Assembly: GCF_036964665.1 (NCBI RefSeq)
Contig: NZ_JBAMDA010000001.1
Location: 2,952,001 to 3,016,000 of the forward strand
Source: Nitrobacter sp. NHB1
Lineage (GTDB): Bacteria; Pseudomonadota; Alphaproteobacteria; Rhizobiales; Xanthobacteraceae
Reading direction: 5' to 3'
Length of the DNA: 64,000 bases
Position numbers and translations under genes: made by a program. The notes beneath the pieces are model-generated. The model had not been told where the DNA came from. It saw only the letters and a program-made list of their open reading frames with translations, and did no database searches. This document shows positions 10,699 to 13,383 of the stretch, one piece after another; the first letter of the stretch is position 1, and each line of letters opens with the position of its first letter.

Positions 10699-13383
10699 AT
10701 GACAAACATCGCCCCCGGTCATGCTACTGCAACCCTATCCGGCCGCGAGCTGGCGCTCCAGCGCCGGCAGGCCATGGCGCGTCACGGCAAGGCCCGCGTC
10801 ATCCAGACCGCGCAAACCGACAAGCGCTCCGCGGCCGGCCGCCTGCAACTGAATGCGGCACAGATCGCGAGCGCCCATCACGGTGGTGTTCCAGCCGCAT
10901 CGTCGGCGGCGGGCACGGCGTCTACGCTCACTCCGGTGGCGTCGAAGTCCGCGGCACGATCCCGGCGGCAGGCGCTGTCCACTACAGGTCGGGCGGCGTT
11001 GCAAAATGCTGGGCAGGGCGCGGCAACCCGCCCCGCGGCGCATCTGCGCCCCGGCCGGGCGGTGCCGGCCGAGGTGCGTGGCTCTGATGGCGGCTGCGGT
11101 TGCGGCGGGCAATGCGGTTGCGACACCGGCGGCGCGCAGCGCAAGGAGGCGGCGCAGATTGAAGCGGCGCAAGTCGGCACGCCCGCGGTGGAGCGCCCCG
11201 CGCTGAACGTGCAAGGGGCCGCTACCGGCCGCGCGCTGGCCAAGATGCGCCGCGCTGCGCTGAATCAGGATGGCAAAACGGGCCTCAAGCGCGTCGCCCA
11301 GGCCACGCGGATCGCCGCGGCGATGCCGGGCCAGGATTGGCAGAGTGCCATGCTCAAAGGCGCAACCGGCCGTCAGGTCGCGATGCAGCGCCGGCTGGTG
11401 CAGGCGCTGGCGGGCCGGGTCGACAAGACTTCCGGCGCCAGCACTCGCCCTACCGGCCGGATGCGTGCCCGCGACGTGGTCCCGGCGCCGGCCAAGGTCG
11501 AGCAGGGGCATACCCTATCGGGGCAAGCCGTCACTGGCACCCAGGTCGAGCGCAGCGTCAAGGTGACCGGCAACGAGCCGGGCTCCTGCCGCGCGGTCAC
11601 CGGCACTGAATACATTGGCTTCGAGCAGTTCCAGACCCTGTGCGGTACACGGCCCGAGCCGACGGCGCCCAAGGTCGCGGTCAGTAGCACGCTGCGCGAG
11701 CAACGCGTCACCGGCACCGCGCTGGGCCGATCCACCAAGACCACCGGCGATGAGCATGGCGCATGCCGTTCCGTGACCGGTACCGAATATCTCTCGAGCG
11801 AGCGCTTTGAGCAGTTCTGTTCGACGCGGCCGTCCGCGCCGCTGGGGAAGGTGGCTCTCGCCCGTACCGACAAGGGCCAAACCGTCACCGGTGCGCTGGT
11901 CGATCGTCCGCGCCGCGTCACCGGAGTTGAGTACGGCGCCGACCGCGCTATCACCGGTACACGCTACAGCCAGGCCGAGACCGATGACGCTCCACCCAAA
12001 GTGGCGGTCACTCATACGGCTGCGGGCAAACCCGTGACCGGCACGGTAGTGGGCCGCAGCGAGCGGCAGACCGGCGATGAGGCCGGGAGCTGCCGCCCGA
12101 TTACCGGCACCGAGTATCATACCGTCGAGCAGTTTCGCGATTTTTGCCGGACGCCGCCCCCAGGAGGAGGCCCGCGAAAGGTCAGCGTGATGTCCACCCG
12201 CGACGATCAGACCGTCTCGGGGACGGCCGTCGATCGGTCGGGCAAGGTGACCGGCAACGAAGTCGGCTCCTGCCGCAGCATCACTGGCAGTCAGTACTAC
12301 ACCACCGCTGATTTCGCGGGGCTGTGCAAGACGCCTAACCCCAGGAAAGTGTCTGAGATGCTGACGCTGCGCGGTCGGACCGTGACTGGTTCGGAGGTTG
12401 CGCCCAGCCCAAAATTGTCCGGTGACGAGTCATACGGGTGCGAACCCGTCACCGGCACGGACTACATTGGCACCCGCCAGTTGGCTGCGGTCTGTCCGGC
12501 AGCGCCTGCCGTCTCTCCGGTGAGCAAGGTCGTGGTCGACACCACGCTGAACGGCCAGACGGTCACGGGCGTCGCCGCGGGACGTGCGGACCACGTCACC
12601 GGCAACGAGGCCGGAGCGTGTTCGCCGATCAGCGGCACTCCATACATCGGCCAGGGCCAGTACGCCGCGTTCTGCCAGACGCCGCAGCGCCAGCAGCAGG
12701 CCGCGCGAGTGCGCGACAGCGCAGTGATCCCGGCCACCGTGGTCACCGGCGATCGGCCGGGCGCGGGCGGATCGCAAGTCACCGGCGACGAGCGCGGCGC
12801 TTGTGAACCGATTTCGGGAACGCCCTATCTCGGGCTGGACAATATCGTGTCCGGGCAATGTGCGATGAGCGACCGCTTCCGCACGCACGTTGTGGATCAA
12901 CGTCCGTCCGCTCCCCGGGATTTCAGTATCAGCATTCCGGCGCGGCAGGCTCGCGAGGAGCGGCAAACCGAGGTCATCACCGGCAGCGGCATGAGTAACT
13001 CGCGGATCACCGGCCCGAACAACAAGGCCGATGGCCTGATCACCGGCACGCCCGAATTCCGCCACGGCGACCATGTGCGCCGTCCACGCGAGGATGAGCA
13101 GTCGCTCCCCGCCGCGCGCCGCTTGAGCGGCGAAGGCAGCCAGCAGGGCCGGCGCGTCTCGGGAGACGCCTGGGACGGTAACAGCCGTGTCACCGGCACC
13201 GAAGGTTCGTCCAGCCTGTCGCGCAATCCCTCGATGCGCGGGCAGTCACGTGGGACCGGTGCCAGCGCCATGGCGTTTCGCAGCGTTGAGCGACCTGAAG
13301 TGCCTGAATCGGTGATCACCGGCTCGGCCGGCAATACCCGGGGCGGCGCCATGGTGACCGTCTCCGGCGGGGCGCGCGGCTGA
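10699..13383 (+). CDS. csoS2: CsoS2: alpha-carboxysome assembly scaffold protein
   Basis: An 894-residue, low-complexity, mostly disordered scaffold. The N-terminal region (about 1-270) carries four Arg-rich RuBisCO-binding repeats, e.g. SGRELALQRRQAMARHGK, SRRQAL, MRRAAL and MQRRLVQAL. The middle region (about 273-640) has seven VTG/TGTEY repeats of roughly 55 residues starting with KV; the third lacks its Cys pair and is degenerate. The C-terminal region (about 640-894) carries ITGS/VSGD motifs that anchor to the shell. An unusual Cys cluster (C133, C135, C139, C141) lies in the N region. A -1 frameshift cassette at 12393-12453 predicts a second, 575-residue product. Start ATG 10699 is preceded by GAGG. 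Confidence 0.97.
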   Translation: MTNIAPGHATATLSGRELALQRRQAMARHGKARVIQTAQTDKRSAAGRLQLNAAQIASAHHGGVPAASSAAGTASTLTPVASKSAARSRRQALSTTGRAALQNAGQGAATRPAAHLRPGRAVPAEVRGSDGGCGCGGQCGCDTGGAQRKEAAQIEAAQVGTPAVERPALNVQGAATGRALAKMRRAALNQDGKTGLKRVAQATRIAAAMPGQDWQSAMLKGATGRQVAMQRRLVQALAGRVDKTSGASTRPTGRMRARDVVPAPAKVEQGHTLSGQAVTGTQVERSVKVTGNEPGSCRAVTGTEYIGFEQFQTLCGTRPEPTAPKVAVSSTLREQRVTGTALGRSTKTTGDEHGACRSVTGTEYLSSERFEQFCSTRPSAPLGKVALARTDKGQTVTGALVDRPRRVTGVEYGADRAITGTRYSQAETDDAPPKVAVTHTAAGKPVTGTVVGRSERQTGDEAGSCRPITGTEYHTVEQFRDFCRTPPPGGGPRKVSVMSTRDDQTVSGTAVDRSGKVTGNEVGSCRSITGSQYYTTADFAGLCKTPNPRKVSEMLTLRGRTVTGSEVAPSPKLSGDESYGCEPVTGTDYIGTRQLAAVCPAAPAVSPVSKVVVDTTLNGQTVTGVAAGRADHVTGNEAGACSPISGTPYIGQGQYAAFCQTPQRQQQAARVRDSAVIPATVVTGDRPGAGGSQVTGDERGACEPISGTPYLGLDNIVSGQCAMSDRFRTHVVDQRPSAPRDFSISIPARQAREERQTEVITGSGMSNSRITGPNNKADGLITGTPEFRHGDHVRRPREDEQSLPAARRLSGEGSQQGRRVSGDAWDGNSRVTGTEGSSSLSRNPSMRGQSRGTGASAMAFRSVERPEVPESVITGSAGNTRGGAMVTVSGGARG
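12393..12453 (+). promoter_or_regulatory. Programmed -1 ribosomal frameshift cassette inside csoS2
   Basis: The elements occur in the order seen in bacterial -1 frameshift sites such as dnaX. An internal Shine-Dalgarno GGAGG (12393-12397) is followed by a 10-nt gap and then the slippery heptamer C CCA AAA (12408-12414), in the zero frame at codons 571-572. A 6-nt spacer follows, then a hairpin: GGTGAC (12421-12426) pairs with GTCACC (12448-12453), or ACGGGT/ACCCGT (12434-12439/12444-12449) pairs around a GCGA tetraloop. In the -1 frame a TGA occurs at 12423-12425, after three codons (I, V, R). Slippage would yield CsoS2A of 575 residues beside full-length CsoS2B. Halothiobacillus csoS2 is known to make both forms by this mechanism. 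Confidence 0.8.

Follow-up and report, generated by a model that had tools for sequence, protein, structure and literature searches.

The window, a stretch of 64,000 nucleotides from Nitrobacter sp. NHB1, carries on its forward strand a csoS2 gene (10699-13383) encoding full-length CsoS2B of 894 aa (Pfam CsoS2_M, PF12288, E = 1.1e-190). The gene order at the locus, cbbL-cbbS-csoS2-csoSCA, matches that of the N. hamburgensis plasmid, the protein is 91% identical to the csoS2 product of that plasmid, and the nearest relatives by csoS2 are Nitrobacter. Frameshifting in csoS2 determines how much of the scaffold in α-carboxysomes is shell-anchoring and how much is not; these organelles perform a large share of carbon fixation and are being transferred into crops. 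A programmed −1 frameshift was reportedly described in H. neapolitanus csoS2 by Chaijarasphong et al. in 2016.

The slippery heptamer and its conservation

The slippery heptamer C CCA AAA (12408-12414, + strand), with CCA as the P-site codon (12409-12411) and AAA as the A-site codon (12412-12414), lies in the sixth M repeat, MR6 (PRKVSEMLTLRGRTVTGSEVAPSPKLSGDESYGC); the window csoS2 has no other in-frame X XXY YYZ heptamer. Synonymous shuffles of the gene yield an in-frame CCCAAAR in 13.6% of cases and one with a stop three codons on in 1.05%. The −1 frame reads CCC AAA ATT GTC CGG TGA, whose tail ATT GTC CGG TGA (12414-12425, + strand; Ile-Val-Arg, with the stop TGA at 12423-12425) would be appended to 572 zero-frame residues to give a predicted product of 575 aa. 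All four elements reported in the initial annotation are present with the spacing it gave: GGAGG, 10 nt, C CCA AAA, 6 nt, a stem, and TGA in the −1 frame three codons on. The combination CCCAAAR plus GGTGAC occurs twice in the 3.79-Mb host genome, once inside csoS2; the second copy lies outside csoS2 on the minus strand (C1:3207894-3207912). Transcriptional slippage was rejected as an explanation because the A run is of four only.

The site was compared across 180 nonredundant csoS2 ORFs drawn from genomes, a sample of targeted families and not a census, since csoS2 was almost absent from a phylum-wide genome draw, and one that leaves out the α-cyanobacteria. Clade A1 denotes the genes of Nitrobacter, Thiomonas, Nitrosomonas and Thiobacillus, and clade A2 the H. 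neapolitanus-type genes. C CCA AAR in MR6 with a −1 stop at an identical distance is found in 64 of the 180 ORFs, and the stem is also kept in 64/64 of these genes, which fall in two clades. As this set was itself picked by heptamer plus −1 stop, the phylogenetic count makes the stronger statement: among the 65 genes of the two site-bearing clades, the site is missing from L095 only. The proline codon at the site is CCA in 64/64 genes, compared with 7% of Pro codons elsewhere in the same genes, and the glycine codon that creates the −1 stop is GGT in 64/64, compared with 22% of Gly codons elsewhere. Counted along the window ORF from stop to stop, codons 585-607 form the peak of synonymous constraint in the whole gene over the 64 sequences (z 5.6, with obs/exp reaching 2.0). 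Free synonymous variation of the heptamer and hairpin in close relatives had been named at the outset as one observation that would count against a frameshift signal, and the proposal survives this test in both the close and the wider (64/64) comparison: in seven Nitrobacter-type genes synonymous changes are confined to the spacer, L1 and upstream codons, while the SD core, the heptamer and both strands of stem 1 and of stem 2 are unchanged.

Several observations on the sampled genes stand beside this pattern. L001, on a contig labelled as a Burkholderiales MAG, matches N. hamburgensis (L146) without a difference over 105 nt at its csoS2 site and is probably misbinned Nitrobacter DNA. Two genes that stand beside or inside site-bearing clades lack the site, L095 (691 aa, at the base of clade A1) and L159 (863 aa, in the short-gene clade B described below), and are candidate site losses. 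Among the other csoS2 clades (~80 genes), a search for equivalent slippery sites gave peaks of synonymous constraint, none tied to a slippery heptamer; one such peak, in the small sample of L122 and 14 related genes, lies at codons ~508-515 (ISSEMASDN; z 5.4). L106 and L109, whose clade is without the MR6 site, carry C CCA AAA early in the gene, at codon ~236-239 (CGRRRPK), and the −1 stop that follows is spaced as in the window.

Internal Shine-Dalgarno sequence and 3' structure

An internal Shine-Dalgarno (SD) sequence, GGAGG (12393-12397, + strand), lies 10 nt upstream of the heptamer, and GGAGG or GAGG stands at exactly this distance in 42 genes, comprising 41/42 A1 genes and, in A2, only L091. 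At the window site the anti-SD energy is −10.2 kcal/mol, compared with −7.2 at best in the other repeats, and mean ΔG over the compared sites is −9.7 as against −3.5 in other repeats. The Glu codon within the element is GAG in 42/42 genes, compared with 68/181 for the same motif in other repeats (p ~1e-26). The initial annotation had proposed a stimulatory SD, and codon choice relative to the same motif in other repeats supports the element as a selected feature, stimulation itself being its predicted role. On these sequence comparisons the SD is a selected, lineage-specific feature of clade A1, near-absent from A2 and lacking 5' of the site in H. neapolitanus.

The core of stem 1 begins 6 nt after the heptamer, in keeping with the H. 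neapolitanus-type csoS2 frameshift element, in which a 3' RNA structure follows closely. This core pairs GGTGAC (12421-12426) with GTCACC (12448-12453) and can be extended to 9 bp between CCGGTGACG (12419-12427, + strand) and CGTCACCGG (12447-12455, + strand). The core pairs are 100% paired in 58 distinct sequences, with only two variants, in both of which pairing is retained by G-U. This invariance makes covariation unobtainable for stem 1, and its support consequently comes from codon choice and folding energy: the site fold has z −2.7 against synonymous shuffles in the window and a mean z of −2.4 over the 64 genes, and hairpin energy averages −20.7 at the site compared with −16.1 kcal/mol in control repeats.

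The loop of stem 1 contains CGGGTGC (12435-12441, + strand), which by comparative pairing forms the 5' strand of a second stem with GCACCCG (12470-12476, + strand), and stems 1 and 2 together are predicted to form an H-type pseudoknot whose loops measure 7, 5 and 14 nt. The loop hexamer GGGTGC hardly varies, even though GGG is seldom used for glycine (10%). Its exact reverse complement occurs downstream in 54/64 genes, compared with 15 expected from synonymous shuffles of the downstream peptides and 3.5 when windows elsewhere in these genes are taken; apart from two overlapping registers, the remaining hexamers of the region find 0-5 partners. The partner's distance to the slip codon ranges from 61 to 99 nt, across differing peptides and in two codon registers. 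Compensatory changes are found in L076 (GAGTGC/GCACTC, G-C to A-U), in L085 (GTGTGC/GCACAC, G-C to U-A, silent with the peptide unchanged) and in L086 (GGGCGC/GCGCCC, U-A to C-G). Wobble pairs occur in L007, L063 and L148, and in five genes (L121, L091, L087, L088 and L151) the stem is weakened at its end pair or shifted. Stem 2 follows in part from a Ser/Gly-Thr-Pro peptide, for which codon shuffling predicts 23%, and its duplex energy against synonymous shuffles is weak by itself (mean z −1.0; more than 1 sd beyond the shuffles in 33/64 genes), so that the claim is carried by the exact-partner and compensation tests.

The principal alternative is that frameshifting is real and the stimulator is a plain hairpin, either the 6-bp stem or its GCGA-tetraloop variant, with stem 2 an accident of a conserved peptide. 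Stem 1 alone does fold with z −2.7, an inner hairpin GGGT-GCGA-ACCC (12436-12447, + strand) can form with its GGGT/ACCC paired in 88% of cells, and the H. neapolitanus element has been described as a stem loop by Atkins and colleagues (PMC5009743). The inner hairpin and stem 2 share the GGGT bases and are mutually exclusive, and it is the inner hairpin that is less conserved: a CGC or CTC codon ahead of GTC breaks it, and in those genes stem 2 mostly persists. An accident of the peptide also fits poorly with 54 exact partners where 15 are expected, found at varying distance, peptide and frame, and with three independent compensatory changes. We therefore regard a plain hairpin as improbable and conclude that the csoS2 frameshift stimulator is, from these comparisons, very probably an H-type pseudoknot, a structure that is provisionally new against the literature searched, which does not extend to Chaijarasphong et al. 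2016. The 6-bp stem and 6-nt spacer of the initial annotation stand, but the plain or GCGA-tetraloop hairpin very probably does not, the GCGA form being a less conserved alternative to the pseudoknot; the interval 12393-12453 assigned to the signal proved too short, with the second pseudoknot strand (12470-12476) falling outside it.

Proposed programmed frameshifting in relation to known systems

We assign a probability of roughly 0.93 to the reading that the element is a programmed −1 ribosomal frameshift signal that would yield CsoS2A beside CsoS2B, with the SD and the pseudoknot as putative stimulators. A ribosome with CCA in the P site and AAA in the A site would be held by the pseudoknot ahead while 16S anti-SD pairing with GGAGG, 10 nt behind, would pull it back; some ribosomes would then re-pair on CCC AAA, append Ile-Val-Arg and terminate at the TGA within stem 1. 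The outcome would be a 575-residue CsoS2A alongside the 894-residue CsoS2B, the short form retaining the Rubisco-binding N-terminus and most M repeats and lacking the shell-binding C-terminus. The use of frameshifting in this Nitrobacter, its efficiency and the action of the SD and pseudoknot as stimulators are what we infer from the DNA.

Conservation could instead reflect another RNA function, such as mRNA processing, stability or translational pausing, with the heptamer unused for a shift; we consider this very unlikely, because the heptamer and the fixed-distance −1 stop are conserved at synonymous positions and frameshifting is proven at the homologous site of H. neapolitanus. A last alternative is coincidence, or conservation of nothing more than the amino acids of the M repeat motif TGSEV..PK.SGD...VTG, which recurs in every repeat and is able to fold into hairpins (~−16 kcal/mol in control repeats). 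It is already contradicted by the synonymous-site tests (GAG in 42/42 at the site vs 68/181 in other repeats, CCA in 64/64 vs 7% and GGT in 64/64 vs 22% elsewhere in the gene, site hairpins at −20.7 vs a mean of −16.1) and can be given practically no weight.

Sequence comparison makes the window site the homologue of the H. neapolitanus site at which frameshifting is proven. In the sample, L235 and L236 have as their products the published H. neapolitanus forms of 869 and 570 aa, with CCA AAG, three −1 codons and stem 2 present. The two systems share the gene, the repeat MR6, the C CCA AAR type, three −1 codons before the stop, the stem and stem 2; they differ in that the SD of the window site is missing from H. 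neapolitanus and from most genes of its clade. Frameshifting in H. neapolitanus csoS2 is ~50% efficient, without a 5' SD (PMC5009743), and the structure that the review calls a stem loop is indicated by the present comparison to be a pseudoknot. A slip site in Nitrobacter was to be expected, since the slippery sequence has been reported as widespread in proteobacterial csoS2 (PMC12312397), in 79/162 genes by one count (PMC5009743). Carboxysomes of Thiomonas intermedia contain two CsoS2 forms at ~1:1 (PMC4499774), and Thiomonas delicata (L005), in the window's clade, has the identical element type including the SD. When csoS2 was relocated to a neutral site in H. neapolitanus, only CsoS2B was seen (PMC11365436), which suggests that frameshift efficiency may depend on context.

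The slip mechanism is thus already known from H. neapolitanus, and what is added here is a putative SD booster in this lineage and, very probably, the pseudoknot. Together they suggest specific synonymous changes by which the CsoS2A:CsoS2B ratio could be adjusted and the role of CsoS2A probed.

The arrangement of the window site also resembles that of E. coli dnaX, where a −1 frameshift at A AAA AAG with a simple hairpin produces a truncated isoform. In both, an internal SD ~10 nt upstream, a heptamer and a 3' structure lead (in the window, by prediction) to a truncated isoform; they differ in heptamer and 3' structure, and the dnaX gene and product are unrelated to csoS2.

A putative second architecture in short csoS2 genes

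A clade of 33 short csoS2 genes, clade B (e.g. L032, L034, L038, L040-L042, L153-L182), is without the MR6 C CCA AAR site and carries A AAA AAR at PKKVETSHTSAG, where an earlier M repeat begins, preceded by an SD (SD energy −8.1 vs −2.9). This putative site, which we call type B and treat as a lead separate from the window's own element, is closer to dnaX than the window site is, by virtue of its A AAA AAG and upstream SD. The −1 frame runs for 26 sense codons past the slip lysines, with the stop kept in 33/33 genes, a count partly built in because the set was chosen by heptamer and stop distance; the peptide and codon-position tests that follow are independent of how the set was picked. At the peptide level the −1 tail is conserved (KKGGN.SHERWRNGERHPTGS..E..RR), the predicted −1 product contains the peptide ERWRNGERHPTG, and nowhere in the gene is synonymous constraint stronger than over the tail codons. 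Between L040-L042, the most diverged members, and the rest of the clade, the −1 peptide is 51% identical and the zero-frame peptide 34%, where shuffling predicts 18% for the −1 frame (z 9.3), and third-position changes make up 27% of differences in the tail compared with 48% elsewhere. A search for a stimulatory hairpin in clade B found no strong one (fold z −0.5).

These comparisons point to selection on a −1 product that ends in a conserved tail of its own, and the short isoform is predicted at ~345 aa where the start is unambiguous. It is probable, on the patterns of codon and peptide conservation, that at least two frameshift architectures exist in csoS2: type A, with C CCA AAR, a pseudoknot and a lineage-specific SD, and type B, with an SD, A AAA AAR and a short isoform bearing a conserved 26-codon tail. 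Type B genes would imply that a short CsoS2 can also be reached in another way, one that gives it a distinct conserved tail. Like the pseudoknot, the type B site is provisionally new against the literature searched, which again does not include Chaijarasphong et al. 2016 and which yielded, on csoS2 with such features, only the Atkins review and a single carboxysome-engineering paper.

In the Halothiobacillus family (L234, L235, L236, L237 and L239), A AAA AAG or A AAA AAA occurs at codons ~259-315, at APKKVE(T/I)(G/S)HT, and a stop closes the −1 frame one codon past the slip codons. Judged by its sequence, this may be a second slip site in H. neapolitanus-type csoS2.
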